64,000 nucleotides of DNA, from positions 2,826,501-2,890,500 of the forward strand of contig NZ_AP024597.1 of the NCBI RefSeq assembly GCF_019704315.1, given 5' to 3'. The stretch comes from Stygiolobus caldivivus. Lineage in GTDB: Archaea > Thermoproteota > Thermoprotei_A > Sulfolobales > Sulfolobaceae. The translations under genes and the position numbers were made by a program. Position 1 is the first letter of the stretch. Each line of letters starts with the position of its first letter. Under the pieces are notes generated by a model. It made no database searches and was not told where the DNA came from. It was given only the letters and a program-made list of their open reading frames with translations. This document shows, one piece after another, positions 38,617-60,913 of the stretch.

Positions 38617-38727
38617 TTCTTTTCATAATAAACGCGAAGGCGGTCTAACGTCTACTGGAGCTCGGCGTAGTCACATGGCTTAATTTATTCGCCTTCACCA
38701 CGGTTAGGTAATACCTTTCATGTCTTT
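38617..38727 (-). repeat. Family C repeat, copy 2
   Basis: About 111 bp whose reverse complement aligns with 6687-6800. The longest shared block is AGACGTTAGACCG. It sits in the 305-bp gap between cynS and the FAD oxidase and no gene is seen in the rest of this gap. Confidence 0.6.
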
Positions 38728-38762
38728 GCAAATATTACGATTTGCAAATATTATGATAAAGA

Positions 38763-42128: not shown

Positions 42129-42133
42129 TTGGC

Positions 42134-43378
42134 ATGTTAGTAAGGAACGTGAAGTTTAATTCTGATAATAAAATTCACTCAATATACGTTAACGATGAGG
42201 GCATGATAGAGTGTATTGACTGTAATAGAAAAGACGGTACTGTAATCGATGCTAAAGGAAGATTGATCTCCCCTCCCTTTGTTAATCCTCACTCTCATCT
42301 TGGTTATGCCCTGACCTTAAAATATGCCAAGTTTAATGAAAGCGGTACATTGCTAGAAGGTGTACAAATTACAAGGGAAGAGATTATTCCTAAAATAAGT
42401 GAGGAAGACCTAAGAAAAAGACTAGATATTATTTCAAAAATGTTATTTATTAATGGGGTTTTATATGTCAGAACACATGAACCAGTATTAAATGACTTAG
42501 CTATAAAGATGTTGAGAATTAGGGAGGAATTCACGAATTTAATAAGAATACAAGTAGTAGCTTTTCCTACTCCGGGGTATTTTTATGGGGATAATATAGA
42601 GAGGGCAGAAAAAGCATTAGAAGAAGGTGCGGAAGTAGTTGGATTAATACCCCATAGTGAAGGTAGCATTGAAGAGGGATATAAGTCAATAAAAATTGCT
42701 ACAGATTTGGCTGTAAAATACGGTAGGTTAATAGATGGACATGTTGATGAGACCGATGATCCTTCATCTCGCTTTTCTGAGGCCTTAGCAAGAGAAGCCC
42801 TTGTTAGGGGCATAGGGAAAAGAACTAGTATTAGCCATATGACAGCTTCCCATTCCTATGATAACTGGTATTTTCACAAATTACTCCTCCTATTACGGGA
42901 TAGTGGCGTATCCGTGATCTCAAACCCTGTAGTCAGCCTTCACTTACAAGGTCGTTATGATAACTATCCCAAGAGGAGAGGTATCGCAAGGATTAGAGAG
43001 CTTATGAAAGGAGGTGTAAACGTTGCTTTAGGTAGCGATAACGTTATTGATGCGATTTATCCTCTAGGGGATTATAATATGTTAAGGGTAGTACAAGAAG
43101 CGTTCTTAGTAGACCACTTCGTAGCATCTGAAGTAACTTCTTTAATTAGTGGAATTACCGAAAACGGTTATAAAGCTCTTAGTATAGTTCCGCCTATCAT
43201 TGAAGAAGGACAAAAGGCTCAATTTATCATTTTGCAAGCTAGGAACTATTACGACGCGATTAGGACTGCGTTGCCTCCATTTCTTGTAATTAACGGCAGA
43301 TATTATGCTAATAATAATGTTTCTTTTCTTGTAAATGATAGTGATATCACTGATAAGGTAATAAACATAGTAGATTGA
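42134..43378 (+). CDS. Cytosine-deaminase family amidohydrolase, copy 1
   Basis: About 414 residues of the CodA group of metal-dependent hydrolases, which deaminate cytosine, creatinine or similar rings. By comparison with E. coli CodA, the metal ligands are all present: NPHSHL, GHVDETDD (His plus the proton-shuttle Glu), SHMTASHSY and GSDNVID (Asp). The Gln that binds cytosine in CodA's AFPQEG is Thr here (AFPTPG), and CodA HDD is SDN, so the substrate probably is not cytosine. GTG 42125 is possible, but ATG 42134 follows GGAGTGAT and matches the family start. Overlap with the permease stop implies coupled translation. Confidence 0.88.
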   Translation: MLVRNVKFNSDNKIHSIYVNDEGMIECIDCNRKDGTVIDAKGRLISPPFVNPHSHLGYALTLKYAKFNESGTLLEGVQITREEIIPKISEEDLRKRLDIISKMLFINGVLYVRTHEPVLNDLAIKMLRIREEFTNLIRIQVVAFPTPGYFYGDNIERAEKALEEGAEVVGLIPHSEGSIEEGYKSIKIATDLAVKYGRLIDGHVDETDDPSSRFSEALAREALVRGIGKRTSISHMTASHSYDNWYFHKLLLLLRDSGVSVISNPVVSLHLQGRYDNYPKRRGIARIRELMKGGVNVALGSDNVIDAIYPLGDYNMLRVVQEAFLVDHFVASEVTSLISGITENGYKALSIVPPIIEEGQKAQFIILQARNYYDAIRTALPPFLVINGRYYANNNVSFLVNDSDITDKVINIVD

Positions 43379-43469
43379 GCTAAGGTATGATATTTTATAT
43401 ATTTTCTGATTAAATTAGTGGGGGGCCTAAGTATTTAACGTAAACTGAGGTATAATTATCGAGGGAAAT

Positions 43470-43513
43470 GTTTAGGGTAATACTCAGCTGTTACGATTTT
43501 TGAATAAATGTCA
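43470..43513. repeat. Intergenic motif B, copy 3
   Basis: TTTAGGGTAATACTCAG followed by ATTTTTGAATAAATGTC in the same arrangement as the other two copies. It stands 112 bp before a family A element, as copy 1 stands about 87 bp after one. Confidence 0.5.
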
Positions 43514-43624
43514 ACCAGAATCGGGCTTACGGTGGCGATAATAAGCTTTGCTCTCATGGATCACATATTACTTTATGGTACTTACTGTCCACGAGACTGA
43601 AGAAATTTTTTAACGCATGATCTA

Positions 43625-43731
43625 AATACTTGGTCAAAGCACTAAAGGGCAAGTCTCTCGTCATATTCATAGCCAATGTGTATACTTTAAGTTAAAGCTA
43701 TTTTTGTCCTTTATAAAGTGACCGAGTATAT
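43625..43731. repeat. Family A inverted-repeat element, copy 5
   Basis: A 107-bp copy; left end AATACTTGGTCAAAGC then ACTAAAGGGCAAGTC; right end TGTCCTTTATAAAGTGACC then GAGTATA. It aligns end to end with the reverse complement of copy 3. Confidence 0.8.
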
Positions 43732-44186
43732 CGCTCTTTCATTTCCTCCATCAACTATAGTTATCTGCGACCCTATACAAGATGGATTCACTTTGGGAAT
43801 ATGATCCTTTAGGAGTACCAATTAAAAAACTCTTAATAAATATCTAGAATATAATTAGCATTTACTGAAAAATCGTTGCAGTAAAGTATTACCCTGAACA
43901 CTTACATGCATACTTATACTTCATTATTATCTTAAATAGTTAGGAACACAAAATCTTGATCTGAAGATCTAATATTACACATCTAATTGGTAAAAATATA
44001 TTAGGCACAAGAGTTTTAGGTAAAATGTTATCTAAATAGTAAGAATATATACTTTCAATATAAATTTTCACATGATTTTTCCCAAATCTTCATCAAAAAT
44101 ATACAAAATTCAAGTGTAATAGTTTGTAATATTTTTAATTTAAATGGGTTTTACATTTAAAAAGAGTTCATGAAAAGATTACATTT

Positions 44187-45788
44187 ATGTCACAAGGTAA
44201 AAAACTATTCATAAGGGAATCCTCAGGTCTAGTTAGGCAAATGGGAGCCAAGCATGCGTTTGCAAAAGTATTAGCCCTAATTGTTCCAATATCACTTTAC
44301 TATACCCTAATTTATTCACCAGCAATACCAGCAGCTAACTGGTACATAGGTATAACTATAGCACCGATAATAGCTTTACCTATATTTTTAGTCTACCTAA
44401 AATTAGCGGAGTATATTCCACGGTCTTCAGGGGAGTATATCTACATTTCGAGGATCATAGGACCTTTACCCGCTACTATACAAGGGATGGCTAATATTAT
44501 TTCAACTCCTTTATTAGCTGCTATACTATCTCAAATAGAGGTATCCGCAGGGATAGGACCGGCATTTCAAATAATAGGACTTGCTTTTAAAAACTCGGCA
44601 TTATTTAACCTAGGTACTGAAATACTCTCAAACCCAGACTATTTCTTTCTAGCCAGTTTAGTATCATTAGTCTTAATGTGGATAGTGAGTATATCTCCGC
44701 AAAAAATAATGGCCAATTTCCTTTTTGCTATCGCCACAATGCAGGTTGTAGGAGCTATCCTAATTATAGGTTTATTTGCACAAGGTAGAACAGCTTTTGT
44801 AAATGATTTCAATAAATTCTCGTCAACGTTCTCTGGGCCTAATTACCAGGATCTATATTCACAAGGATTAAGCTACTACTCACCTTACACTGATCCGTTG
44901 CAGACTTTCGTCTTTGCGATATTGATGCTTATGTGGCTCTTTGTATGGTTTTTTGGTCCTTCTTATTTTGCAGGCGAGTATAAACAAGCTACCAGGAGTC
45001 TAAAGGTAGGAATGCTAATAGGTTACGGTATAGCTACAGCTTTAATAATAGGATTAACAGTTTACACTGCGACTACGATGGGGATACCGTTCTTTAATGA
45101 GGTAGCTTTGAACGGTTGGGGTTCCAGTAATCCGGTAAGCGCATCAGAAGGATATATAGCATGGGCAGGAGTAATGGTGGTAAGTTCACCTATTCTGGCC
45201 CTGCTTGTAGGTGTGTTGAATATAGGTATCCAGTTCGTAGCGGGTCCTCTATCGTTAGCGATCCCCGCTAGAGTGATGCTTGCCATGGCATTTGATAGGA
45301 TACTACCGGAGAAACTAGCTTATGTGAACCCAACGACACAAAGTCCTCTTATAGCTTCAGGCGTTGCTCTAGCGTTAGGCGTATTCTTTGAGTATGCTAC
45401 TCAGTTTTTAGGTTTTGCTGTTTCAACTATTGCATTGATTGCTGTTTTGTTTATTTATCAATTTTTACAAGCTACAATATCAGCTACTGTAGCAGGTATT
45501 AAAGGTATACCTAGCGTTGAACTATCACAGAAAGAAAAGAAAGAGCTACTGATAACAGGGATAATTTCATCAGCAGTTCTGGTTATAGCAGTCATAACAG
45601 CTATAGGCTACGCATTGATTAATAGTTTGTATAACTCTATGGTTCTAGCAGGTAATTTGCCCCTGAACCTCACACTGATAGCAATAATACCGATAATTGG
45701 AGTGATAACATATTATATATCTAAATATTATAGGCAAAAAGAAGGAGTAGACTTAAAATTAGTGTTTACGGAGATACCACCCGAGTAA
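44187..45788 (+). CDS. APC superfamily permease, RESSGL...EIPPE type, copy 3
   Basis: A 533-residue carrier, about 12-14 helices, opening KKLFIRESSGLVRQMGAKHA and ending LVFTEIPPE. Its 3' end overlaps the convergent formamidase/acetamidase gene by 23 bp. Small amides or related compounds are possible cargo, judged only by the neighbour. Confidence 0.9.
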   Translation: MSQGKKLFIRESSGLVRQMGAKHAFAKVLALIVPISLYYTLIYSPAIPAANWYIGITIAPIIALPIFLVYLKLAEYIPRSSGEYIYISRIIGPLPATIQGMANIISTPLLAAILSQIEVSAGIGPAFQIIGLAFKNSALFNLGTEILSNPDYFFLASLVSLVLMWIVSISPQKIMANFLFAIATMQVVGAILIIGLFAQGRTAFVNDFNKFSSTFSGPNYQDLYSQGLSYYSPYTDPLQTFVFAILMLMWLFVWFFGPSYFAGEYKQATRSLKVGMLIGYGIATALIIGLTVYTATTMGIPFFNEVALNGWGSSNPVSASEGYIAWAGVMVVSSPILALLVGVLNIGIQFVAGPLSLAIPARVMLAMAFDRILPEKLAYVNPTTQSPLIASGVALALGVFFEYATQFLGFAVSTIALIAVLFIYQFLQATISATVAGIKGIPSVELSQKEKKELLITGIISSAVLVIAVITAIGYALINSLYNSMVLAGNLPLNLTLIAIIPIIGVITYYISKYYRQKEGVDLKLVFTEIPPE

Positions 45789-46755
45789 TCTCTTTTATTT
45801 CATTTTTTACAGTGTCATTTTCAAATATGTCTAAAGGTAAATAAGCTGTAACTATCCAATTGGGAACATCTACGACTTGACTAACTCTCAGGTTTACCGC
45901 TACACTTGCTAACATATAAGCTTCAACAGGAGCCATATACTTTGACAAGATAGAAATTATACCCTTAATAGCTTTTTTAGATGCTACCCATAAGTTACTA
46001 TCAATACCCGGATAAGCTATATACTCATTAAATTCCATGTCTTTTACTTTATTGGAATAAAATATTGGTTGAGTTAATCCTATGTTCTTTATCAATCTTA
46101 TTTTCATAGTGACCTCTAGTGGGGCTTCAATAGCTGTGCCACAGACCTCTCCATCCCCTTGAGCTAAATGGGTGTCTCCTATAGAGAGTAGACCCCCATT
46201 AATGAATACCGGAAGATATAACTTAGAACCTTTAGTTAGGTGCTTTATATCCATATTGCCTCCGTTTTCTCTAGGGGGAATAGTACTTAATTTACCTCTT
46301 TGAGGTAAAGCTACTCCGATAACACCAGGGAAAGGATATGTGGGAATCTTGACCTCAATCTCTCCAAACTTAGCATAGGCATTGTTATTTTTAACGTTCC
46401 ATATCTTAAGAGAAGGTCCTTTTAGATCAATAGGTGCAGTGTATTGTTCATCTGATAGGAATCCAAAACCTGGAATAACTGCCGTCCATCCCCATCCTTT
46501 ATCCTTAAAATCAATGAACTCTATCTCTAAGACATCTCCAGGCTCAGCGCCTCTAATTTCGATGGGCCCTGTCAGAGGATGGATTCTGTCGAAATCTAAG
46601 TTATATAGCTCTCTATCTGTAGAAGACGGGCTTATTTGCCCGTCTGAAGCTTCTTTAGTTTCTACGGTTATTATATCACCATCACTTATTGAGAAAATAG
46701 GAGGGAGAGAACTATCCCATTTATTATGGGTTTTTGCGTGTATAGTGTATTGCAT
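45766..46755 (-). CDS. Formamidase/acetamidase family protein
   Basis: A 329-residue protein of the FmdA/AmdA family, which hydrolyses formamide, acetamide or similar short amides to ammonia and the acid. Family blocks are DGDIITVETKEASDGQ, HPLTGPIEIRGAEPGDVLEI, PFPGVIGVALP, the NGGLLSIGDTHLAQGDGEVC block (shortened here to its first part) and TAIEAPLEVTMKI. Length is near that of archaeal and bacterial members. It is divergent from the FAD oxidase at 46796 with only 40 bp between them, so their promoters overlap. Confidence 0.9.
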   Translation of the reverse strand: MQYTIHAKTHNKWDSSLPPIFSISDGDIITVETKEASDGQISPSSTDRELYNLDFDRIHPLTGPIEIRGAEPGDVLEIEFIDFKDKGWGWTAVIPGFGFLSDEQYTAPIDLKGPSLKIWNVKNNNAYAKFGEIEVKIPTYPFPGVIGVALPQRGKLSTIPPRENGGNMDIKHLTKGSKLYLPVFINGGLLSIGDTHLAQGDGEVCGTAIEAPLEVTMKIRLIKNIGLTQPIFYSNKVKDMEFNEYIAYPGIDSNLWVASKKAIKGIISILSKYMAPVEAYMLASVAVNLRVSQVVDVPNWIVTAYLPLDIFENDTVKNEIKEITRVVSP

Positions 46756-46795
46756 ATTTTAATATACGATAAGCGAGATTAAAATGTAAAGAGCT

Positions 46796-48031
46796 ATGTT
46801 TGAATCAAATATACTCAGTAAATTCGAGAGAGAACTAGGTAATAAAATGATAGTTGACATAGATCAAATAATCAATTATTCTATTGCACCTTATGTTGTT
46901 TCTCCAATACTGTCTAAAATGAATAGAGATATTATAGGTATTATTAAGGTATCTAATGAAGATGACATAAAGACTATTTTACAGTTAGCTTATAAGTATA
47001 ATGTTCCCTTGATTATGCGCGGAAGAGGCACCTCAACTATTGGTCAGGTAATCCCGCTTAAACCTTCTATAGTCGTAGACATAAATAATTTGACGAGTGA
47101 CTTTGAAATGGATAATGAATACGTCAGAGTACGCCCTGGAGATAAAGTTTTTGAAATTTTAAGATACTTGAAGAGACATGGTAAGACATTGAAGGTCTAT
47201 CCTAGTAGTCTGTATCTTTCTACAATTGGAGGATATATCGCCGGGGGAGATGTAGGGATTGGATCATTTCAATTTGGGTACCACTTCCACGCAGGTATCA
47301 AGTATCTAAAAGTTTACGGTAGTAATGCAAATATCTTAGAGGTAAGGGAAAAAGAGACTTTGGGATTTGCACAAGCAGCAGGCACTAATGGCGTTATCAC
47401 TGAAGCTGAAATAGGAATAATGGATCGTGATGATTGGAAGGACCAATTAATAACTAGTAAAGATTTATTGCAGATTCTAGAAATTATAAAAACTCTTCCG
47501 AGAGAAAAAACAAGGAGAATCATCATAGAGGATTCTGATGCACTAAGCTTGGTAGGAAGGTTGACCGGGCTGAACGAGTGGAACCTGATTATTTCTTCAA
47601 CTTTGAAATTAGGAAGTGAAATAGACGGTAGATTTTTAGATGAACTAGCATTTGCAGCAGTCTATGTAACCTTTAGCAAAATATCTGGTTTCAAAAATTA
47701 TTTTTATGAGGTGAGGTTGTTATCTCTTGAGGAGTTCTATGAAGTTATAAGCGAAATAAAGAAATATTTAGGTAGAAAAGTGCTGATCCATGGTGATGTA
47801 ATGACGTTAAGAGGAAAGATCATTATTTACACTGTGTTCATGTCCGAGAAGAGGAACTTTAAGATTATCGAGGACATAATGAAAAAGAAAGGGATTCCAT
47901 TCGAGATCCATTCTATATACATAAATGATAGGGTAGATGAACCTGAGAGATTAGAACTGATGAAAAAGTACAAAAGGTTATTAGATCCTAAAGATATTTT
48001 AAATCCAGGGAAACTGAGACTTGATACTTGA
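46796..48031 (+). CDS. GlcD-type FAD-binding oxidase, paralogue 3
   Basis: A 411-residue VAO-fold flavoprotein with PLIMRGRGTSTIGQVIPL as FAD loop, STIGGYIAGGDVGIGSFQFG, and the closing LLDPKDILNPGKL. It is more diverged than paralogues 1 and 2: the loop has Arg-Gly-Thr-Ser in place of Gly-Gly-x-Asn-Asn. The gene overlaps the DUF1177 gene by 11 bp, so the two proteins probably act together. Substrate unknown. Confidence 0.83.
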   Translation: MFESNILSKFERELGNKMIVDIDQIINYSIAPYVVSPILSKMNRDIIGIIKVSNEDDIKTILQLAYKYNVPLIMRGRGTSTIGQVIPLKPSIVVDINNLTSDFEMDNEYVRVRPGDKVFEILRYLKRHGKTLKVYPSSLYLSTIGGYIAGGDVGIGSFQFGYHFHAGIKYLKVYGSNANILEVREKETLGFAQAAGTNGVITEAEIGIMDRDDWKDQLITSKDLLQILEIIKTLPREKTRRIIIEDSDALSLVGRLTGLNEWNLIISSTLKLGSEIDGRFLDELAFAAVYVTFSKISGFKNYFYEVRLLSLEEFYEVISEIKKYLGRKVLIHGDVMTLRGKIIIYTVFMSEKRNFKIIEDIMKKKGIPFEIHSIYINDRVDEPERLELMKKYKRLLDPKDILNPGKLRLDT

Positions 48032-48932
48032 AAGTCTAATAAAAACCGTAAGTGCCTTAGAAACTAAAAACCCTAAGCAGAAAATACTCGAAATAATCAA
48101 AAATAGGGGCGTTGAAGTAGAGGAGATCAATCTTAAGGCAAATAATGAAGATGTCACGTACTTGAGATTTTATGTTAAAAATTCTAAAAATAGGACGGTA
48201 GAAGTATTAGGTAGACTTGGTGCGGTTCAAATAAATAATTCTATAGGACTAGTCTCAGACGCTGATGGAGCAATAGTGTCGTTAACAGTCCTCTTAGAGT
48301 TATTGAATTTAATTGAAAACGGATTTAATATTCCAATAAATGTTACCGTTATTACTAATGTTAGTACTAATGCAATGCTAATACCCCATCAGCCATTCTA
48401 TTTCATGGTACCTTTAGTAGGTCTAGAAGAAGCTATTAAATATGAAGTAGATAAAAAAGCTGACACGCTTATCTCGATAGACTCTACAAAGGGAAATAAA
48501 ATAGCTAAATATAATGACTTTGCCATAACTCACGTTATAAAAGAGGGGTATATTCTGAGGGTAACGGAGGAAATCATCGATATTTATACTAGAGTTACAA
48601 ACCATGAACCATACTTTATCCCACTTACTACGGGTGACCTAACACCACTTAGCTTTAAGGTGTATCACATTAGTACTACTCTTGTTTCACCTTGGATATA
48701 TACTGATGCCGCTGTTTTAGGAGTAGCTACAGTGTCGGCCTATCCTGTGCCAGGCTATGCTACAGGGGTAATGGATATTAATATGTTAGAACATGCATCG
48801 AGGTTTATCCTTGAGTTAATAAAGTATTTGAATGATAAAAACTTGGTTTATTATGATGATGAATTAAAAGAACTTAAAGAAAAAATTGGGAACTCTAACC
48901 TATTGAGGTTTCATTCTGGTGGTATTTCTTGA
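48021..48932 (+). CDS. DUF1177 family protein
   Basis: A 303-residue protein of DUF1177, no established function. Family blocks are DADGAIVSLTVLLELLNLIE, MLIPHQPFYFMVP, LISIDSTKGNKIAKYNDFAI, HVIKEGYILRVTEEIIDIYT, LTTGDLTPLSFKVYHIST and YPVPGYATGVMDINMLEHAS. Conserved Asp, His and Thr residues suggest an enzyme, possibly metal-dependent. In bacteria such genes are often found with transporters and amino-acid or amide metabolism, which suits this setting. It starts inside the FAD oxidase gene and overlaps the convergent permease by 22 bp. Confidence 0.8.
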   Translation: MILESLIKTVSALETKNPKQKILEIIKNRGVEVEEINLKANNEDVTYLRFYVKNSKNRTVEVLGRLGAVQINNSIGLVSDADGAIVSLTVLLELLNLIENGFNIPINVTVITNVSTNAMLIPHQPFYFMVPLVGLEEAIKYEVDKKADTLISIDSTKGNKIAKYNDFAITHVIKEGYILRVTEEIIDIYTRVTNHEPYFIPLTTGDLTPLSFKVYHISTTLVSPWIYTDAAVLGVATVSAYPVPGYATGVMDINMLEHASRFILELIKYLNDKNLVYYDDELKELKEKIGNSNLLRFHSGGIS

Positions 48933-50455: not shown

Positions 50456-50661
50456 AACGGAATTATGATAGTAAATATTTAAAACTTTATGCATTATCTT
50501 AAACAATTTGGATAAGTTGGACGGTAAAAAATGTTTAAATTTTTGCGTTAATGTTTTTCCTATTAATGGAAAACTAATGACAGATAATGGCCCTCATTTT
50601 GTGTTGTTTTTAGTAAGATCACACCTGATTTTTATAAGCTCAAATAAATATAAAGAAAATA

Positions 50662-51609
50662 ATGCTAAATGAGTGGATACCGGTCTCATTTTCTGACCAA
50701 GTTAAAAGTATTCTAAGTGTGACCACTCTTTCTAGAGATATTATCCTTTGGAACTACGCAGGTCGTATCCTAGCTTTTAACGACTTATGCCCTCACAGAT
50801 CGGCTAAGTTGTCTTTAGGTAAAGTAATAGACGGTGAGATAGAATGTCCCTATCACGGATGGCGTTTTGACCATAACGGAGAATTAGTTTTGGTACCGTC
50901 ATTAGGAAAAAAGATAAACGTTAAGCTGACTAAATATAATACACTAGAGAAGTACGGAATAGTATGGATATCTATTTCACATGAACTCCATGAGATCCCT
51001 TTTGTAAGTGAGTGGGAGAAAGAAGATTTTAGAAAGATAAGATGTGGCCCTTATGTTATTAATGCAAACCCTTTTAGGGTTATGGAAAACTTAATGGACG
51101 TATCCCACTTTCCGTTTGTCCATTCAAATTATTTAGGCGATCCTAAATTTCCTCAGATCCCAGAGTATGAAGTAGAGAAGAATTATAGAGGAGAAATAAT
51201 AGCGAAAAATATCCTAGTGTGGCAACCTAACCCAGATGGAACCACTAATGGTAGATTTTTTAACTATACTTATAAAGTGCTAACACCATTCGTCCTCTAT
51301 TTCAAGAAGGAAGATAAAGGGAATGTATTTTCAATGTTATTTGCAGTTAACCCCGTTTCTAAGGATAAAAGCATTGTTTACGCGTGGATATTTATGAACT
51401 ATGCTCATCAAGTAGATCCAGAGAGTATTAGAAAGTTCGAGGATGAAATAATAAATCAAGACAAGAAAGTCTTAGAATCCCAGCCCAAAGAATATTATCT
51501 AGATTTAAGGAAAGAAATAAGTGTCAAAGCTGATAAATTATCTATTTTTTATAGAAGAATGTTAAGAGAGAGGTTGGGAGTAATGCCGGAACTGGGTTTA
51601 ACAGAATAG
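50662..51609 (+). CDS. Rieske non-haem iron oxygenase, alpha subunit type
   Basis: A 315-residue oxygenase. The N-terminal Rieske domain holds CPHRSAKL (about 43-46) and CPYHGWRFD (about 62-66), giving the 2Cys-2His [2Fe-2S] site. The catalytic domain has NLMDVSHFPFVHSNYLGDP, with two His of the mononuclear iron, and a likely carboxylate in the later NQDKKVLESQP. It is of the VanA/monooxygenase-like size and type, which hydroxylate or demethylate aromatic and heterocyclic compounds, including purines and methylxanthines. No reductase is encoded nearby. The hydantoinase-family gene follows after 31 bp. Confidence 0.9.
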   Translation: MLNEWIPVSFSDQVKSILSVTTLSRDIILWNYAGRILAFNDLCPHRSAKLSLGKVIDGEIECPYHGWRFDHNGELVLVPSLGKKINVKLTKYNTLEKYGIVWISISHELHEIPFVSEWEKEDFRKIRCGPYVINANPFRVMENLMDVSHFPFVHSNYLGDPKFPQIPEYEVEKNYRGEIIAKNILVWQPNPDGTTNGRFFNYTYKVLTPFVLYFKKEDKGNVFSMLFAVNPVSKDKSIVYAWIFMNYAHQVDPESIRKFEDEIINQDKKVLESQPKEYYLDLRKEISVKADKLSIFYRRMLRERLGVMPELGLTE

Positions 51610-51640
51610 CTTTAATTATAGTATCTTTCTATTTACTTAC

Positions 51641-52897
51641 ATGATAATAAAAAACATAAAGATAGTCAATAAAAATAGTGAAGTTGTAGAAGCCGAAATT
51701 AAAATAGAGGAGAATAGGATAGTTAAAGTAGGCAAATCCGTTGGGAACTCAGATATGGTGTTGGATGGTAAGGGTAAGTTACTCCTGCCTGGTGGAGTTG
51801 ATAATCACGTCCATATATATAAGACATATCTAAAGGTCCCCACATCAGATGACGTAAAGAAAAGCACATCAGCAGCCCTATTAGGTGGAACTACGACTGT
51901 AATTGATTTTGCGTTCGTGGATAGAGAACCTAACTTAGACCAGAGGATTGAACAATTTAAGGACTCAGCTACCAATTATTCTTTTCATATTTTTGCCAAC
52001 ACTGTTTCTAGTGAGCTAAGTAAAATATTCGAGCGCGGGTTCAAATCGGTAAAATTTATGATGATCGAATATGCTGGACTAAAGAGTAGCTTGTCAGATT
52101 TAATAAAATTGAATGAATTTGTAAAGGAAAGAGGCGGGTATATAATGGTACATGCTGAAGATGAGGAGCTAATTAAGGTTCTGTCTGAAGGTAAGGTGGG
52201 AGAGCCTGCTCTACATCTTTTAACTAGACCTGAAGAGACTGAGATATCTGCAGTTGCAAGGGTTAATGCAATCCTTGACAGAGGTCTTATAGCTCATACT
52301 AGTGCCGGAAAGTCCCTAGATATCATAGACCATAAGAGGGTAAAGGCAGAGGCTGTTCTCCACCATCTTATTCTAGATAAAAGCGTATACGACAGGAAAG
52401 ACTCTTATATGTATGTGACCTCACCCCCAGTTAGGGATCCGGAGGAACTGTGGAAAAGGATAGATAAGGTTTATGTTATTGCTACTGACCATAACTGGTT
52501 TAATAAGAGCGTCAAAGAGGCGCATAATCAATTCCCTGATCTAGTGCCAGGCTTACCGGGTATAGAGCTTAGAGTCCCTATGATTATTACCGAGTTTATA
52601 AAAAGGGGACTACCCCTACATAGGGCTATAGAGTTACTATCGGAAAACCCAGCAAGGCTTAACGGTCTCGACACCGGAGCTATCAAAGAAGGGTATAGGG
52701 CGGACCTAGTCCTTTATGACCTGAGTAAGAAATGGAAGATCAGTATAAATACGACCCATATGGCGGATTGGACTCCTTATGAGGGATATGAAGTTATCGG
52801 AAAAGTGGATACTACAATAGTCAACGGTGAAATAGTAGTTGAAGGTAGCGAAATAGTGAGCCAAAAGAGGGGAGAGTTATTATATAATAACCTTTAA
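51641..52897 (+). CDS. Hydantoinase/dihydropyrimidinase family amidohydrolase, copy 1
   Basis: A 418-residue cyclic amidohydrolase. Metal residues are visible: DNHVHIY (two His), VKFMMIEYAG (the lysine that is carbamylated), VHAEDEE, IAHTSAG and ATDHNWFN (Asp). It would open cyclic diimides such as hydantoins, dihydropyrimidines or allantoin. It is less similar to classic dihydropyrimidinases than copy 2, so allantoinase-like or other specificity is possible. Expected to be co-transcribed with the Rieske oxygenase. Confidence 0.87.
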   Translation: MIIKNIKIVNKNSEVVEAEIKIEENRIVKVGKSVGNSDMVLDGKGKLLLPGGVDNHVHIYKTYLKVPTSDDVKKSTSAALLGGTTTVIDFAFVDREPNLDQRIEQFKDSATNYSFHIFANTVSSELSKIFERGFKSVKFMMIEYAGLKSSLSDLIKLNEFVKERGGYIMVHAEDEELIKVLSEGKVGEPALHLLTRPEETEISAVARVNAILDRGLIAHTSAGKSLDIIDHKRVKAEAVLHHLILDKSVYDRKDSYMYVTSPPVRDPEELWKRIDKVYVIATDHNWFNKSVKEAHNQFPDLVPGLPGIELRVPMIITEFIKRGLPLHRAIELLSENPARLNGLDTGAIKEGYRADLVLYDLSKKWKISINTTHMADWTPYEGYEVIGKVDTTIVNGEIVVEGSEIVSQKRGELLYNNL

Positions 52898-53046
52898 GAA
52901 GGCTCCCAAAGACCTAGTAAACCCGTAAGGCTTAATCTTATATATTCACATGGTTAATCTATAAAGGGCATCTTTCAAGGTAAGACGAAAAGCCCTCTGT
53001 AAGATAATTGTAAGGCAAATATCAGAAAGTCAAACAAGGTATATTT

Positions 53047-53153
53047 TATACTTGGCTAGAATTAAAAGAACAAGGTCTTTTCCTTACTTGTCAGAAGCTT
53101 CGACGTGATTTTAGAAAGGGTCTCTTGTCCTTCATGCTCCGATCGAGTATAAC
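53047..53153. repeat. Family A inverted-repeat element, copy 6
   Basis: A 107-bp copy; left end TTTATACTTGGCTAG, right end CTCCGATCGAGTATAA. It is the most diverged copy. Its right end lies only about 36 bp before the start codon of the next gene, and the following TTTTTATATACTC may be that gene's TATA box. A possible older half-copy starts at about 52941 (TATATTCACATGGTTAATC then TATAAAGGGCA). Confidence 0.65.
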
Positions 53154-53189
53154 CTAATTTTTATATACTCAGATATAACTGAATTATTT

Positions 53190-54341
53190 ATGTGGAGTAA
53201 AATGATAGAGAGTGTACTATCTAAGTACTTCACTGTGTATACTCAGAAGGACATATTAGAAAAATATTCAATGGATTATGGATCCCTTTCACCTATACTA
53301 TCGTCACTGAGGAAAATACCAAAAGCGGTAATAAAAATTAAAGAAGAAGAAGAAATAAAGATCCTAATGGATCTAGTTAATGAGTATAATTTTCCTGTTA
53401 TACCTAGGGGAAACGGTACAAATACATTAGGAGAGGCAATTCCGCTTAACGAAAACTCCGTAATAGTCGATATGTCAGAACTGAAAGGTTTCGAGGATAA
53501 AGTGACTTCAATAATAGTCCGACCAGGAACAGAATTTAATGAAATAGGCATAGAAAAATTACCAGTAGTCCCTACAAGCTTTAATATGGCTACAATAGGT
53601 GGATATGTTGCAGGAGGGTCCCTTGGGTTTGGCTCGCTCAAATATGGTGCGATATGGGATAATGTTAGACAAGTTGTAGTGTACACACCTAAAGGTAGAT
53701 ATACCTTAGAAGGTGAAGACACATACAGTGTAGTGCAAGCAGCTGGAACTACCGGCATAATATCTCAGATAAAAATAGCTGCTCTCAACAGACCTAGACG
53801 AATAAGCGTAATTAGGGCCGGTTTTAACACTCTAAGGAAGGCTATAGATAAAGCGTTAGACCTTCTGGAGGTGGCGGAGTTTATAAGCATAAGGAACAAG
53901 GCTATGGCTAGTATCATAGAGCCTTACCATAAGTGGGATAAATGGAATTTGATTTATGGGATAAATGACCCTGATGAAGAGGAAGATCTCCCATTCAAGG
54001 ATATAGTGACCACGTTTGCCGGTGCGTATTTTACAGTCGTTAATAGGACAAAAGTAAATTATGCGTCTATGGATATAAGTTTAGATGAGCTGGAAAAAAT
54101 AGACGATGTAAAGTGCCTTATTGACGCTGAACTAGCTAAAAGTAGAGGAAAGTACTTCTCTCACACGTATTTTTTGGGATATACATCTTTACCTAACTTG
54201 AAATCTAGTAAATTTGACCTTCACTCTTTCAGGGTTAATGATAGGGTAGAACCAGATAGATTAAAGAAGATGGTAAGTTTTAAGAGAGTAGTGGATCCTG
54301 AGGACTTGTTAAACCCTGGTAAATTGGTGATGAATACGTGA
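53190..54341 (+). CDS. GlcD-type FAD-binding oxidase, paralogue 4
   Basis: A 383-residue VAO-fold flavoprotein, shortest of the four. FPVIPRGNGTNTLGEAIPL is the FAD loop, GGYVAGGSLGFGSLKYG follows, and VVDPEDLLNPGKL closes it. It overlaps the next cytosine-deaminase-family gene by 4 bp, so the oxidase and the hydrolase probably act in one pathway. The substrate is unknown. Confidence 0.85.
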   Translation: MWSKMIESVLSKYFTVYTQKDILEKYSMDYGSLSPILSSLRKIPKAVIKIKEEEEIKILMDLVNEYNFPVIPRGNGTNTLGEAIPLNENSVIVDMSELKGFEDKVTSIIVRPGTEFNEIGIEKLPVVPTSFNMATIGGYVAGGSLGFGSLKYGAIWDNVRQVVVYTPKGRYTLEGEDTYSVVQAAGTTGIISQIKIAALNRPRRISVIRAGFNTLRKAIDKALDLLEVAEFISIRNKAMASIIEPYHKWDKWNLIYGINDPDEEEDLPFKDIVTTFAGAYFTVVNRTKVNYASMDISLDELEKIDDVKCLIDAELAKSRGKYFSHTYFLGYTSLPNLKSSKFDLHSFRVNDRVEPDRLKKMVSFKRVVDPEDLLNPGKLVMNT

Positions 54342-55570
54342 TTATAAAGAATGCCGTTAACGAGAATGGTGAGAAAATAAATATTATAATAGATGAAGGA
54401 TCAGGGATTATTAATAAGGTCGTTAAGGGAGATTATAATGATAATCATGACGATAACGTTCTCGATCTGGGAGGTAGATTTATCTCACCGGGACTTGTTG
54501 ACTCCCATGCACACATAGACAGTAATTTTTTATTAGACGTATGTAAGGAGGTAGATACCCCTAAATTCACTGAAGCGCTAAGGTCATTAATAGAATGTAA
54601 GGAAAATTTAACAGAGGATGAAATATATAGATTAGCTAAGAAATCAATGGATTATTATATAATGCATGGGACTCTTTTTATACGTAGTCATGTAATGATA
54701 GACGGCAGGAAATGGAGGGAAAGAGTTAAGTCCCTAATCAGGTTAAGAGAGGAATTTAAAGATAAAGTCTACTTACAAATAATAGGGTTTGTCCAGAGCT
54801 ATGATTATTTTGACACAGACCAAGAGGAGAGGGTGATCAAAAGCATTGAAATGGGAATAGATGGGATAGGCGGTCAACCCCATTTACAGCCCTCTCGGGA
54901 GGACGGAATATACATGATCAAAAGGTTGTTTGATATAGCAGAGCAATACAATATGATCCTAGATTTTCACGCTGATTATGCTGATGAGCCAGATTTAAAA
55001 TTCTCAGAGGTAGTAGTATCAGAGGCTATAAAGAGAAAATTATACGGTAAGGTTTCGTTGAGTCACCTAATAGCTATGCATTCGTATTATGAGGACTATG
55101 CCCACAGGCTGATGAGGTGGATAAAGAACGCAGATATAAACATTATTATATCCCCTATAACTGAGATGCAAGGTTCTGGTGCGCATGAAAATTATCCAAA
55201 AAGAAGAGGGATACCCAGAGTTAGAGATTTATTAGAAGAGAAAATTAATGTGTCTTTAGGTCACGATGATATACAAAACCATCTAAATCCTATAGGTGAT
55301 GGTGATTTACTGAAGGCATCTTTTGCCCTAATGATAGGAGATTATATGTTCTTCACTAGGTATTTTAAACAGATCCTTCAGATGATGACCTATAATGGAG
55401 CTAAGAGTTTACGAATCGAAAATTATGGTCTAGAGGAAGGGAAAAAGGCCAATTTAGTTATCTTTAACACCAAGAACCTGAAAGATACCCTGATACAGAT
55501 ACCTTCAGAACGAATGGTAATAGCTAATGGCAAGGTCATATTTAACAGTTTAAAGTCCGTAACTGTTTAA
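54338..55570 (+). CDS. Cytosine-deaminase family amidohydrolase, copy 2
   Basis: A 410-residue CodA-group protein starting with GTG inside the upstream stop. Metal ligands are kept: VDSHAHID, DFHADYADEPD (His), SHLIAMHSY and GHDDIQNHLNP (Asp). At the position of CodA Glu217, the proton shuttle needed for deamination, a Tyr is found (HADY), and the CodA AFPQEG segment is GFVQSY. A hydrolytic reaction other than deamination is therefore likely. Convergent overlap of 21 bp with the nitrilase-family gene. Confidence 0.83.
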   Translation: MIIKNAVNENGEKINIIIDEGSGIINKVVKGDYNDNHDDNVLDLGGRFISPGLVDSHAHIDSNFLLDVCKEVDTPKFTEALRSLIECKENLTEDEIYRLAKKSMDYYIMHGTLFIRSHVMIDGRKWRERVKSLIRLREEFKDKVYLQIIGFVQSYDYFDTDQEERVIKSIEMGIDGIGGQPHLQPSREDGIYMIKRLFDIAEQYNMILDFHADYADEPDLKFSEVVVSEAIKRKLYGKVSLSHLIAMHSYYEDYAHRLMRWIKNADINIIISPITEMQGSGAHENYPKRRGIPRVRDLLEEKINVSLGHDDIQNHLNPIGDGDLLKASFALMIGDYMFFTRYFKQILQMMTYNGAKSLRIENYGLEEGKKANLVIFNTKNLKDTLIQIPSERMVIANGKVIFNSLKSVTV

Positions 55571-56347
55571 TCTCTTTTTCAAGAATGGCCTTTTTATTCT
55601 GGCTTGTGTTAGTTCACTAATATTAATGTCTGCGTATACTATCCCCTCTTCCTTTCCTAGCCTACTTATTATTTCTCCCAGAGGGTTCACTACTAAAGTA
55701 TCTCCGAAGTACTCCTCTTTCTGGGAAGGGTATTCTTTTCCAATTCTGTTTATTCCAGCTATATACGCGGTATTGAACACGGCATGTGCTTGTAATTCTA
55801 ATTCCCATATTTCCTTAAACGCTGCCACAGACGGGATAAACACTATTTGGGCTCCTTTAACTACTTCGCTCCTGACAGTTTCAGGAAAGTGCCTATCATG
55901 GCAAATTACTACACCTATGGTAATATCCCCTAACTTAAACACGGGAAAACCCAAGTCTCCTACTTTAAAGAAATAATATTCGTTAAACCATTCTTCTTGC
56001 GGTAGGTGAGTTTTTCTATATTTTCCAACTATTTCTCCCTTGTCGTTTATTACAAAAGCGGTATTGTAAAAGAATGAGTTATCTACCTCAAATATTGGAA
56101 CAATTAGATTAATTTGCCTTTCTTTAGCAACCTCTCTAAATGTAGATATGGTTTCTCCATTTTCATCTTCAGCCCAGCTAAAATATTTTGGGTTCTGTTC
56201 AAACGGAAAGTAGATCGTGTTACTAAGTTCATCTAATGATATTATTTTAGCACCGTTATCTGCAGCTTTATGGACAAGTTCTACTTGCCTTTCCACATTA
56301 TCTTTCTTATCCCAGCTCATATACGTTTGAATAGCTGCTATTCGCAT
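55550..56347 (-). CDS. Carbon-nitrogen hydrolase (nitrilase superfamily, N-carbamoyl amidase type)
   Basis: A 265-residue amidase with the full Glu-Lys-Cys triad: ISLDELSNTIYF (Glu near 43), VGKYRKTHLPQEEW (Lys near 115) and IGVVICHDRHFPETVRSEVV (Cys near 150). The Cys motif and the later GINRIGKE match beta-ureidopropionases and N-carbamoyl-amino-acid hydrolases, which release ammonia, CO2 and an amino acid from ring-opened hydantoins or dihydropyrimidines. Length is normal for archaeal members. It would complete the reaction begun by the hydantoinases; specificity is inferred. Confidence 0.85.
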   Translation of the reverse strand: MRIAAIQTYMSWDKKDNVERQVELVHKAADNGAKIISLDELSNTIYFPFEQNPKYFSWAEDENGETISTFREVAKERQINLIVPIFEVDNSFFYNTAFVINDKGEIVGKYRKTHLPQEEWFNEYYFFKVGDLGFPVFKLGDITIGVVICHDRHFPETVRSEVVKGAQIVFIPSVAAFKEIWELELQAHAVFNTAYIAGINRIGKEYPSQKEEYFGDTLVVNPLGEIISRLGKEEGIVYADINISELTQARIKRPFLKKRLNSYGL

Positions 56348-56499
56348 AACTAAATACTCCCTTATCCTAGTTATTAACTGTTTTCATTTATTTAATCAAA
56401 TAAATAAGGTCTCACTGTTTAATGTAAACCTTTTACTGAGATGCGTAAAGGTCTTTTGCTAAATGTTTAAATAGTATTGTCTAAAAGTAAAAAGATCAA

Positions 56500-58440
56500 A
56501 TGCGTTGGAACCTAACATATGTAGACGATATTATGGGCAATTATGAGTATGTGAGTTTTGTAAGGTCTAGATATGAGCACGCTAAGTTCGACATATCAGG
56601 CAGAGCATTGACATATGATGACTTGAAAGAATTCAAAATACCGTATTTATATGATAGAAGTCAGTTAAGACTTCCCGAAATATCGTTACTTCCTAAGGTT
56701 AAGGCATTATACAAGTTTCAGCCCCTTGCTGTCGTAATCGGAAAGGATCCTTATGAGGCTGAAGACTTAGTGGAAGACATAGAAGTTAGTTATACTCCGG
56801 TCTCCGGACCCCTATATGAGGAAATACCAGATAATATAATCTACAAAGAAGGGGTAAAGGGAGAAGTAGATAGTAAGAACGTTATAACTCTTACGTTAAA
56901 TTTCGATAGAAATTCCCAATACCCATTAGAGAGTAGAATAGTCGCGGTCAGGTTTACTGGAGACGATGTTGTTCTTCATATATCTACCCAAATACCTACA
57001 GTAGTCAAGCTCCTTGTGGCTGAAATGCTAGAGATTCCTCAACACAATATAATTGTAGATACTCCCAGAGTAGGTGGGGGCTTCGGGGCAAAACAAGACC
57101 TAATATTAGAAGAGCTGAGTGTTATCGCTTTAGCATATAAACTAAGAAAGAACCTTAAGTGGATAGAAAAAAGAGCGGAAAGCGTTATGACTTCTCAAGC
57201 TAGAGGACAGAAACACGAGGTTAAGGTAGGGTTTAACGATAACGGGAAAGTAGAAGCAGTTTATGATAAAATAACTTATGATGTGGGGGCATATTTATTG
57301 CCATGGACGGGTATATCACCTCTATTTGTAACATTAGCTACCATAAGGGCAGTATATGAGTATCAGTTTTACTATGAGGCCACAGCTTTGTTGAGCAATA
57401 GACCGCCTCAGGGTGCATACAGGGGCTTCGGTAGGCCAGAGGCAGTATTTGTAACTGAAAGGATTATGGATGAAGTCGCTAGATATCTTAAGAAAGACCC
57501 ACTCGATATAAGAGAGGTCAACTTAAAGGAGCCATCGGGAGATGTTGGTGATATAAAAACTGTTTTCGGTAAGTTAAGGCAGAAATATGTTGAGTTAAAA
57601 GAGAAATATAAGAAAGGCGTAGGAGTAAGTTTTTATATACAATACGCCGCTCCAAACTCTGAAATAATGATCAAACACGAGAAATCGCTGGTACCAGGTT
57701 ATGAATGTGTTAGGGCAATCCTTGATACCGATGGATGGATAGAAATCGAGATAACTGCTACGGATCAAGGTCAGATGATGGATAAGGCAATAAGAAACTT
57801 GGTAATAAGGGAATTAGGATACGATAAGGTAAGAGTAAGGTTAGCAGTTACTAACCTTAAGGGTTCGGGAGTATGGGCAAGCAGAACGATGCTTACAATG
57901 GGTAATGCAGCCTTATTAGCTATAAGAAAACTAAAGGATATAGCGAAGGCTATTGATCCTGAACTTAACTGGGAAAAACTAGGTTTAAAAATGCGAAGTC
58001 AGCCTTGGTTAGTTAAGGACATATCTAGCGTAGCTTGTTATGAGCCGTCAGAATTCGTAGGCACCGTTAGCGGTCAAATTAGCGTAGTCACTGTGGATGA
58101 CTTTTCGCGGATTAAACCCCTATATCATTATATTATCGCTGATGTTGGAGAAGTAGGTGATGCAAACAATGTCATAGGTCAATTAATAGGAGGTGCACTG
58201 CAAGGAATTAGCGGCTCGCTTTATGAGAATATACAAGACGAGTACTCTTATCTTATAGCTAAAGCAAATGAGTCTCCTATTTTTGAGGTCGATTTGCTTC
58301 ATGCTCCGTCTAGAACGCCAAGCGGAGTTAGGGGAGTTGGAGAAAACGGGCCAACCGGTGCATATGCTGCTGTTACAAATGCAATAAACGATCTAGGAAT
58401 AAAATGTAATAAAATCCCTATAAACCTTGAAGGTGAATAG
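56500..58440 (+). CDS. Molybdenum hydroxylase large subunit, copy 2
   Basis: A 646-residue molybdopterin subunit of the xanthine dehydrogenase/aldehyde oxidase family. VGGGFGAKQDL, PPQGAYRGFGRPEAVF and SGVRGVGENGPTGAYAAV with the catalytic Glu are in place. It is clearly shorter than the family norm of about 750 and than the copy at 1289 (685), with reduced loops in the middle. No FAD or 2Fe-2S subunit is encoded near. The hydantoinase-family gene starts 2 bp after its stop and a CodA-family gene follows, a strong hint that it hydroxylates an N-heterocycle whose ring is then opened. Confidence 0.87.
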   Translation: MRWNLTYVDDIMGNYEYVSFVRSRYEHAKFDISGRALTYDDLKEFKIPYLYDRSQLRLPEISLLPKVKALYKFQPLAVVIGKDPYEAEDLVEDIEVSYTPVSGPLYEEIPDNIIYKEGVKGEVDSKNVITLTLNFDRNSQYPLESRIVAVRFTGDDVVLHISTQIPTVVKLLVAEMLEIPQHNIIVDTPRVGGGFGAKQDLILEELSVIALAYKLRKNLKWIEKRAESVMTSQARGQKHEVKVGFNDNGKVEAVYDKITYDVGAYLLPWTGISPLFVTLATIRAVYEYQFYYEATALLSNRPPQGAYRGFGRPEAVFVTERIMDEVARYLKKDPLDIREVNLKEPSGDVGDIKTVFGKLRQKYVELKEKYKKGVGVSFYIQYAAPNSEIMIKHEKSLVPGYECVRAILDTDGWIEIEITATDQGQMMDKAIRNLVIRELGYDKVRVRLAVTNLKGSGVWASRTMLTMGNAALLAIRKLKDIAKAIDPELNWEKLGLKMRSQPWLVKDISSVACYEPSEFVGTVSGQISVVTVDDFSRIKPLYHYIIADVGEVGDANNVIGQLIGGALQGISGSLYENIQDEYSYLIAKANESPIFEVDLLHAPSRTPSGVRGVGENGPTGAYAAVTNAINDLGIKCNKIPINLEGE

Positions 58441-58442
58441 GA

Positions 58443-59750
58443 GTGATTATACGAAATGCAAAGGTTATTACTTCACAGGGGATTATAGATACTGACATTA
58501 AAATAGCTAACGGAAAAATACAAGAAATTAGGAAAAATATAGTGAATATAGGTGAAGACGCATTAGACCTTTCTGGGTATTTTTTGCTTCCGAGTGTCGT
58601 GGACGGGCATACTCACTTTAACTCTCGGTACCTAGGAGCTAGAGATATCATACCCACAGCGGATGACTATAAGAGTGGGAGCGAAGTAGCCCTAGCTGGA
58701 GGGATAACATCTTTTATCAACTTCATTGATCCAATGAAAGACCCCGTAGAGTCTGTTAAAGAAGAAATTGAAAAAGCTAGGCAACAGTCCATGGCTGATT
58801 TTTCTTTTCATCTTATAGTTAAAAGAGGCGAGCACGTAAAGTATCTTGATGAAGTTTTTAGGTTAGGTGTAAAGAGCGTAAAAGTGTTTACAGCGTATAA
58901 GGGTTCAATGCAACTTGATGACGAGAATATTTTCAAAGTAATGAAAAAAGTAAAACAGCTTAATGGGGTTGTGGCAGTCCATGCAGAGAACGGTGATGTA
59001 ATAGATGAGCTCCAAGAGGAATACGGGAGGAGGCCTGAAGCAATATACCACGCGTTGACCAGACCGCCGGAAGTTGAAGAAGAGACCGTTTATAGGGTGG
59101 CTACAATGGCTTACCTTACTAAAGCTAAAGTATACATTGTCCACACTTCGTCTCCGAACTCAGTTAAAATCGTTAGTGAATGGAGGAAAAGAGGAGCAGA
59201 AATTTATTCTGAAACATGCCCGCATTACCTAGTCTTTGACGAAAGCTACTATGAAAGACCGGACGGTAAGAGGTTTATAATGTCTCCTCCCCTAAGGAGT
59301 AAAGAGCTTAGGGCGGAGCTTATAAGTAATTTAGACATGGTAAGCACATTAGGTAGTGACTATGCAGGGTATATGTCGCAATATAAGGATAAAGCATTAA
59401 GTTACTTAGAAGTCCCTAATGGTGTAGCGTCAACAGAGTTCCTAGTGCCTACGATAATGACCATGATGTTCAAGAATTATATAACTCCCCAAAAGGTAGC
59501 AGAGATAACTTCAGAGAACCAAGTCAGACTTTACAACCTTAAGGATAAAGGATTTAGGGTCGGGGGAGACGCCGATTTTGCGGTAGTTAAGAGAGAGACA
59601 TGGAAGGTTAAGGACTGGCACGGTAAAATGGATCACTCTATCTATGAAGGAATAGAGTTTGATGCAAAGGTAGTGAAGACGTTTTTAAGGGGTGATTTAG
59701 TCTTCGAGGAAGATCTAAAAGGTGGTAAAGGAGTGATGTTAGCAAGATGA
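58443..59750 (+). CDS. Dihydropyrimidinase/hydantoinase, copy 2
   Basis: A 435-residue cyclic amidohydrolase close to true dihydropyrimidinases. Metal residues: VDGHTHFN, VKVFTAYKG (carbamylated Lys), VVAVHAENGD, VYIVHTSSP and LGSDYAGY (Asp). SETCPHYL and SPPLRSKE are also diagnostic. It starts with GTG preceded by AGGTGAATAGGAGTG and is followed by a 4-bp overlap with the CodA-family gene. It opens hydantoin- or dihydropyrimidine-like rings to N-carbamoyl compounds. Confidence 0.9.
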   Translation: MIIRNAKVITSQGIIDTDIKIANGKIQEIRKNIVNIGEDALDLSGYFLLPSVVDGHTHFNSRYLGARDIIPTADDYKSGSEVALAGGITSFINFIDPMKDPVESVKEEIEKARQQSMADFSFHLIVKRGEHVKYLDEVFRLGVKSVKVFTAYKGSMQLDDENIFKVMKKVKQLNGVVAVHAENGDVIDELQEEYGRRPEAIYHALTRPPEVEEETVYRVATMAYLTKAKVYIVHTSSPNSVKIVSEWRKRGAEIYSETCPHYLVFDESYYERPDGKRFIMSPPLRSKELRAELISNLDMVSTLGSDYAGYMSQYKDKALSYLEVPNGVASTEFLVPTIMTMMFKNYITPQKVAEITSENQVRLYNLKDKGFRVGGDADFAVVKRETWKVKDWHGKMDHSIYEGIEFDAKVVKTFLRGDLVFEEDLKGGKGVMLAR

Positions 59751-60913
59751 CAATCATAAAAAATACCTCAGGGTTTAGTGGGGTCATTACAATAAATGAC
59801 GGAGAAAATATTGTGATCGATGCAGAGGGTAGACTAGCTGTCCCTTCTTTTTATGATATGCATGTTCACTTAGAAAACGCATTAACATTAAAGTACACTG
59901 GTGAAAATGAGTCTGGGACTCTTACAGAAGCAGTAGAAAAATGGGCTAAAGTAAGAGATACACTCAGTAAGGAAGATATAAAAGTTATAATGAAAAAGGC
60001 TATAATAGTAGAACTTTATAACGGAGTAACTCATATCCGTACCCATGCTGATACGTGTTCAAAAAACTTAAACTCAGTCAAAGCAGCGTTAGAAGTTAAA
60101 GAAGAAATGAGAAAGTACGTTGACTTACAAGTGGTAGCTTTTCCTGAACAAGGTGTTTTTAACTGCAACCCTGAGGAATTTATAAGGGCTATTCAAATAA
60201 GCGACATTATAGGAGGAAAACCTGACGGCGAAGATAGTGAGGACTTGGGAAAAGAGCAATTGAGGCTTATAGCCGAATACTCACTAAAGACTGGTAAACC
60301 TATCGACGTACACATAGATCAAGGTGACGAGTTAACGAGGTTCACTGAATATTTGTTATCCTTAAAACAAACCCACGTTGCCCTTTCTCACCTTACAGCA
60401 CTTCACTCTGCTTCTAATGAATATTCAAATAGAATTCTCGGTTTGATAAAGAAAAAGAACGCATCGGTAATAAGTTCACCCTTAACTACAGTATACCTTA
60501 ACGCAAGGTATGATAGTTATCCCAAAAGGAGGGGGGTTACCAGAATAAGAGAGATGTTAAAGAGAGGGATTAACGTTTGTCTAGGTCATGACGATTTTCA
60601 AAATCCGTTCTTCCCTTTAGGGTTTGGTGATATAATTCAAGCATTGTATCTTGGAATATTACTGGAGCAAATTGACCCTGTGGATGAGGTAATTAGTTTG
60701 ATAACCGTTAATTCCGAAAGGGAATTTTCTTATGCCACTAAACCGTCTACAGATGATCTAGTAATTCTTGACGCGAAAAGTATAAGAGAACAACTATCTA
60801 CTTTAGCTAGTAGATTTATGGTCATAAGAAATAATAAGGTAATTGCAAAAACGAATAAGAGTGGCGAGGTAATATTAGACGGAAATAAATTCAATCCGTA
60901 TTCTTTAATCTAA
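59747..60913 (+). CDS. Cytosine-deaminase family amidohydrolase, copy 3
   Basis: A 388-residue CodA-group protein. Metal ligands: YDMHVHLE, DVHIDQGDE (His), SHLTALHSA and GHDDFQNPFFPLG (Asp). The AFPEQG segment is close to CodA AFPQEG. The residue matching CodA Glu217 is Gln (HIDQ), so the proton shuttle is altered. The protein is the last gene of a three-gene operon with the Mo-hydroxylase and dihydropyrimidinase. Its end overlaps the convergent Lrp gene by 9 bp. Confidence 0.85.
   Translation: MTIIKNTSGFSGVITINDGENIVIDAEGRLAVPSFYDMHVHLENALTLKYTGENESGTLTEAVEKWAKVRDTLSKEDIKVIMKKAIIVELYNGVTHIRTHADTCSKNLNSVKAALEVKEEMRKYVDLQVVAFPEQGVFNCNPEEFIRAIQISDIIGGKPDGEDSEDLGKEQLRLIAEYSLKTGKPIDVHIDQGDELTRFTEYLLSLKQTHVALSHLTALHSASNEYSNRILGLIKKKNASVISSPLTTVYLNARYDSYPKRRGVTRIREMLKRGINVCLGHDDFQNPFFPLGFGDIIQALYLGILLEQIDPVDEVISLITVNSEREFSYATKPSTDDLVILDAKSIREQLSTLASRFMVIRNNKVIAKTNKSGEVILDGNKFNPYSLI

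Follow-up and report, generated by a model that had tools for sequence, protein, structure and literature searches.

The genome of the heat- and acid-loving archaeon Stygiolobus caldivivus (2.96 Mb, a single contig) encodes five CodA-like amidohydrolases, three of which lie within the 64,000-nucleotide stretch analysed here (G000:C1:2826501-2890500, hereafter the window). These three proteins, which we call B, C and D, belong to orthologous groups with fixed changes of catalytic residues around an intact set of metal ligands. We propose, with moderate confidence, that they are functionally separate enzymes of the mononuclear subtype III on the CodA branch, that probably none of them is a cytosine deaminase, and that D and its partners form a route acting on N-heterocycles. 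D, and probably C, would then be hydrolases in a ring-opening pathway that has probably not yet been described. Automatic annotation would label several of these proteins cytosine deaminase, a name that probably fits none of the three in the window. The loss of CodA Glu217 has precedent in itself, as AtzC carries a histidine at that site.

Catalytic residues in the three groups

Orthologues were drawn from 60 related genomes, from 398 genomes of the phylum and from stretches taken from these, and their residues were compared in four groups: A, represented by 17 rows chosen from 42 with Gln156 and Glu217 (CodA numbering); B, with seven rows of B and B2 type proteins; C, with seven; and D, with nine. 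C was found in seven of the 60 related genomes and D, intact, in nine. The metal ligands (HxH, His214, Asp313) are present in all 40 rows, and His246 is retained in every row of B, C and D. An earlier note on this DNA had read the motifs at the E. coli Glu217 site as HVDE (B), HADY (C) and HIDQ (D), the substrate-binding motifs as AFPTPG, GFVQSY and AFPEQG, and all metal ligands as intact; the translations and the rows agree with it on each count.

The differences at the proton-shuttle position exceed chance. Position 217 is Glu throughout groups A and B (17 and seven rows), Tyr in six and Phe in one of the C rows, and Gln in all nine D rows; a site that takes either Tyr or Phe in C is unlikely to hold a conserved acid equivalent to Glu217. 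At position 156, Gln is kept in every A and C row (17 and seven), B has Thr (five rows), Ala (one) or Ser (one), and D has Glu (nine). Trp319, present in all 17 A rows, is absent from the other groups and is replaced by Ile in B (7/7), Leu in C (7/7) and Phe in D (9/9). Group D therefore shows a reciprocal exchange in 9/9 rows, Gln156 having become Glu and Glu217 having become Gln. On strand 4, Ile183 of CodA (GAIPH) is replaced by Gln in 7/7 C rows and by Lys in 9/9 D rows (GGKP), and His185 by Asp or Glu in 9/9 D rows. D thus gains two carboxylates, Glu134 and Asp/Glu160 (D numbering), and C none at the positions compared. A substitute Glu serving all three proteins, which would have undermined the earlier note, found no support in this residue comparison.

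In the published account of CodA (PMC12828455), an aspartate deprotonates the metal-bound water, a histidine relays the proton to a glutamate, the glutamate protonates N3 and a glutamine stabilises the oxyanion. The Asp, His and Glu are described there as highly conserved, and replacement of the glutamine (Gln156) by Asn or Ala as inactivating. Compared with this frame, the aligned residues indicate that B lacks the glutamine, C lacks the glutamate and D has the two exchanged.

B groups with bacterial CodA inside the core clade, keeps Glu217 and has the 5-methylcytosine deaminase 4r7w as its top PDB match, as would be expected if it truly deaminated cytosine or 5-methylcytosine and C and D alone had diverged. 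We consider this unlikely. The changes of Gln156 to Thr, Ser or Ala and of Trp319 to Ile extend to all seven rows, the first of them at the residue whose loss is reported to inactivate CodA. Furthermore, the NCBIfam cytosine deaminase models (NF005748, cut-off 438 bits; NF006685, cut-off 483 bits) give best scores of only 314 for B, 241 for C and 273 for D, and the same genome holds a gene, A, that matches CodA at residues 156, 217 and 319 (G000:C1:1711773, approximately 1.1 Mb from the window; HVDE and AFPQDG). The remaining CodA-like gene, B2, lies at G000:C1:2916697 and encodes HVDE and TLPATG. The limit of at most one classic deaminase among the three, as the earlier note had it, is probably too generous, gene A being the better candidate; judged from their residues, B, C and D probably include none. 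B may instead be an enzyme of the CodA core that has taken on a new substrate, perhaps imported by its permease.

Published CodA-type and guanine-deaminase-type enzymes have the Asp-His-Glu machinery in common and differ in the location of the stabilising Gln, which relative to the triad dictates substrate orientation (PMC12828455). With a Glu after strand 3, a Gln after strand 5 and an invariant Lys on strand 4, D could represent a third subtype III active-site geometry, in which the substrate is flipped and a ring is opened in an undescribed archaeal N-heterocycle pathway; we offer this more specific version tentatively and regard it as rather doubtful. What an enzymologist might design as a double swap, to probe how substrate orientation is chosen, exists in D naturally and in fixed form. 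In the mechanism that we envisage for D, the metal hydroxide would be activated by Asp282 and His215, and Glu134, not the residue at 217, would be the proton donor.

The strand 4 lysine also permits a reading in which D has turned binuclear. In this case a carboxylated Lys158 at the end of strand 4 would bridge two metals in the style of dihydroorotase and hydantoinase, making the Glu217 shuttle unnecessary. The lysine is invariant and directly follows strand 154-157 in the D model, and with HxH, His189, His215 and Asp282 it completes, in sequence, the five classical types of binuclear ligand. However, Lys158 could instead pair with Glu134 or bind a substrate carboxylate, and when the profiles of C and D were compared with those of the hydantoinases of the window, no alignment covered the Lys158 region of D and this residue was not placed against the bridging Lys. 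We regard a binuclear D as quite improbable.

A more drastic possibility is that C and D, having lost a residue important in CodA, are degenerate copies that are inactive or regulatory. The copies in the window genome and in its same-genus relative are 82% identical for C and 81% for D; the proportion of nonsynonymous differences (pN) is 0.10 for C, 0.115 for D and 0.13 for the classic CodA pair, and its synonymous counterpart (pS) is 0.81 in this same-genus pair and saturated, so that a dN/dS ratio is not calculable. Low pN beside saturated pS indicates constraint: C and D are under purifying selection and are not decaying. Metal ligands are also complete in 16/16 C and D rows, and the reading frames are intact in seven (C) and nine (D) genomes, so that decay was rejected on the grounds of constraint and intact frames and degeneracy is scarcely credible. 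Real decay is visible in one further genome (G013:C1:1410381-1412493), where D and the molybdenum (Mo) enzyme subunit described below stand side by side, both interrupted by stops or frame breaks, so that this copy of the module is decaying. One search placed an in-frame TAG in the G005 copy of D, but it was absent from a second search using the D protein itself.

Gene partners and a putative ring-opening route

Each of the three genes overlaps a different partner by four bases: B the permease, C the flavin adenine dinucleotide (FAD)-linked oxidase and D the hydantoinase-like HYD2 (Table 1). C adjoins the FAD oxidase in 6/7 genomes, and D is at most two genes from the Mo subunit in 9/9. Intact D, HYD2, Mo subunit, nitrilase-type amidase and FAD oxidase occur in the same nine of the 60 genomes, the window genome included (G000, G001, G003, G004, G005, G012, G019, G020 and G023), at identities of at least 56% for HYD2, 49% for the Mo subunit, 71% for the nitrilase and 51% for the FAD oxidase. 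G013, with its broken D and Mo genes, gave no match above the thresholds for HYD2, the nitrilase or the FAD oxidase. The His, Lys and Asp ligand positions are invariant in all 14 rows of HYD1 and HYD2. A literature search among open-licence papers found nothing on these Sulfolobales genes.

Table 1. Positions of the CodA-like genes, selected codons and neighbouring genes in the window.
Feature	Position	Strand	Remarks
Amino-acid-permease-family transporter	40536..42128	+	stop overlaps GTG start of B, 4 bases
B, CodA-like amidohydrolase	42125..43378	+	HVDE, AFPTPG; alternative start ATG 42134; within CodA core clade
B, Thr at CodA-156	42569-42571	+	
B, Glu at CodA-217	42749-42751	+	
Rieske oxygenase	50662..51609	+	upstream of HYD1
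HYD1, second hydantoinase-like enzyme	51641..52897	+	wider island
FAD-linked oxidase (FAD_binding_4)	53190..54341	+	stop/start overlap with C, 4 bases
C, CodA-like amidohydrolase	54338..55570	+	HADY, GFVQSY
C, Gln153 (CodA-156)	54794-54796	+	
C, Tyr214 (CodA-217)	54977-54979	+	
Carbon-nitrogen hydrolase (nitrilase superfamily)	55550..56347	-	nearest N-carbamoylputrescine amidase models, under cut-off
Molybdopterin-binding subunit, xanthine-dehydrogenase-family hydroxylase	56500..58440	+	accompanies D in 9/9 genomes
HYD2, hydantoinase/dihydropyrimidinase-like	58443..59750	+	stop/start overlap with D, 4 bases; same nine genomes as D
D, CodA-like amidohydrolase	59747..60913	+	HIDQ, AFPEQG
D, Glu134 (CodA-156)	60146-60148	+	
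D, Lys158	60218-60220	+	
D, Gln192 (CodA-217)	60320-60322	+	

These associations make D and the four enzymes inherited with it a concrete candidate for a missing pathway of nitrogen-ring degradation in thermoacidophilic archaea. In the route that we favour, the Mo hydroxylase, the FAD oxidase or both would oxidise an N-heterocycle, and D would hydrolyse a C-N bond of the oxidised ring to leave a hydantoin- or dihydropyrimidine-like cyclic ureide. Opening of this ureide by HYD2 would give an N-carbamoyl amino acid, from which the nitrilase-type enzyme would then release ammonia and CO2. We infer both the substrates and the order of these steps. C may use what its FAD-oxidase partner produces and would do so without an acid of the Glu217 type; the lack of such an acid suits amide or imine hydrolysis better than amidine deamination.

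Several observations weigh against this route. The nine module genomes all belong to one family, and the co-occurrences in them do not count as nine separate events. C is absent from two of them (G004 and G020), leaving it in 7/9, and cannot be an obligate step. A Mo homologue (47%) occurs without D in G007, a 63% nitrilase occurs without D in G009, beside a 41% hydantoinase, and the NCBIfam scores of HYD2 and of the nitrilase lie under their cut-offs. The chemistry suggested for D and C is drawn from sequence and gene context, and it has to accommodate AtzC, an enzyme of the same branch that keeps amine removal despite replacement of Glu217.

AtzC provides the basis for the main rival explanation, in which C and D are exocyclic-amine hydrolases, either deaminases or alkylamine hydrolases, of other heterocycles. 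Here the His246 equivalent alone would act as the shuttle, or Glu134 or Asp160 would do so in D, and the substitutions would retune specificity only. In the AtzC study (PMC4577212), His219 occupies the Glu217 site, the H219A mutant has near wild-type kcat, H249A is dead, His249 is the proposed shuttle and a Q160E mutant stays active. The CodA frame built on Glu217 is therefore not absolute, and it goes too far to conclude from the absence of Glu217 that deaminase chemistry is gone. The His246 equivalent is kept in 7/7 C and 9/9 D rows, and further relatives lack Glu217 as well. However, the association of D with a hydantoinase and a Mo hydroxylase suggests that a ring is oxidised and opened, and C shows no acid at the compared positions that could protonate a leaving amine. 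We regard exocyclic-amine hydrolysis as possible, although on balance we doubt it.

The ring-opening route remains our preferred reading of D and its partners. The broader claim of three distinct reactions is well supported as an inference: the proteins belong to three separate groups of orthologues, which differ in their fixed residues and in their neighbours, namely the permease for B, the FAD oxidase for C, and the hydantoinase and Mo enzyme for D.

Related genes occur elsewhere. A second Mo-subunit paralogue (43% identity) lies approximately 44 kb past D (G000:C1:2930914-2932293). In G003, nitrilase-type (39%) and hydantoinase-like (37%) genes lie near a B-type CodA (L040:14476-17932), possibly as a second, divergent module, and in the same-genus relative, G001, the permease beside B is split across two reading frames (L035:10900-12488). 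Within the window, positions 32926-48932 hold further nitrogen-release genes, among them arginine-deiminase-like, cyanase, formamidase-like and DUF1177 genes together with several FAD_binding_4 oxidases and permeases. Consecutive Alpha-E, transglutaminase-like and circularly permuted ATP-grasp genes occupy positions 61431-63924 and are kept beside the module in G001.

Phylogenetic placement and predicted structures

Profile searches gave 133 matches, comprising 103 distinct sequences, of which 96 passed length and hydantoinase filters. Exclusion of six distant rows left 90 for a first tree, and removal of seven hydantoinase rows left 83 for a second; the bacterial rows were 12 of 60 listed plasmid matches plus four others. 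In the maximum-likelihood tree of 83 rows, built without the three trait columns, C and D each form a clade with support of 100/100 and lie outside a CodA core (95/97) of 49 rows that includes A and B and keeps Glu217 in 49/49. An approximately unbiased (AU) test did not reject joining either C or D singly to this core (p-AU 0.142 and 0.396, respectively), and a sister grouping of C and D, with support of 93/46 on long branches, is uncertain. C and D thus appear to be deep lineages, with their precise branch order left loose by the tree.

The remaining 18 rows have Glu (three), Asp (12) or Phe (three) at position 217, and eight of the 12 with Asp have also lost the strand-5 His. Glu217 is lost in other relatives too, with HxDF in three bacterial rows and HxHD in AtzC and three actinobacterial rows. 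The HxDF proteins from bacterial plasmid records L101, L108 and L110 also lack the Asp313 ligand (TNN motif), and two of the three adjoin genes that carry the annotation 8-oxoguanine deaminase. Eight archaeal rows (L030, L032, L033, L075:172-1428 and L089-L092) form a CodA-like clade that has AMLTDD in place of HxDE and has lost the strand-5 His ligand.

Among the phylum-level relatives of D that were read outside the family of the window genome, all were either of the classic AFPQ/HVDE type or members of a clade without the strand-5 His. A scan of genome contigs for the C signature returned four relatives, one alone of type C, on a contig of Sulfolobus sp. UBA167. A first scan of viral contigs for CodA relatives found none; a second found seven distant ones, which were not used for folding.

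AlphaFold models of C and D, built from six-row alignments, have predicted template modelling scores (pTM) of 0.81 and 0.83, with low-confidence loops after strands 7 and 8 in both. The best structural match is CodA in each case: 3o7u for D (Z 40.7, root-mean-square deviation 2.7 over 358) and 1r9y for C (Z 43.8, 2.7 over 371). AtzC comes next, with Z of 38.3 for D and 41.9 for C. This agrees with phmmer searches of the PDB, in which the top match was E. coli CodA or its relative, the 5-methylcytosine deaminase 4r7w, for B (E 5e-80), C (5e-52) and D (1e-68).

Relation to CodA, AtzC and the reductive urate pathway

The models of C and D resemble bacterial CodA (PDB 1k6w, 3o7u) in fold, metal ligands, His246 and Asp313. 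The three proteins differ from it in catalytic residues, with Glu217 gone in C and D, Gln156 gone in B and D, and Trp319 gone in all three. AtzC, an N-isopropylammelide isopropylaminohydrolase, shares with C and D the subtype III branch, the lack of Glu217 and the retained His246 equivalent. It differs in having HxHD (HIHD in row L055) and Asn304, whereas C has HxDY/F and D has HxDQ, with Asp-Asp, and B has HVDE; AtzC also stands apart from C and D in the tree.

The closest parallel to the proposed route is the E. coli pathway of reductive urate breakdown (XdhD, YgfK, SsnA, HyuA), which also combines a Mo enzyme of the xanthine-dehydrogenase family, a subtype III amidohydrolase, a hydantoinase and ureido cleavage. 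In the proven route (PMC12507026), XdhD is followed by ring cleavage by SsnA and then by the hydantoinase HyuA. The amidohydrolase in Stygiolobus is CodA-like and not SsnA, as the SsnA family model NF005540, whose cut-off is 444, scores C at 25.4 and D at 22.7; the amidase is of the nitrilase type, and a FAD_binding_4 oxidase is added. By analogy, the shared logic of Mo hydroxylase, subtype III amidohydrolase, hydantoinase and ureido-cleaving enzyme favours a ring-opening pathway for D and its partners.

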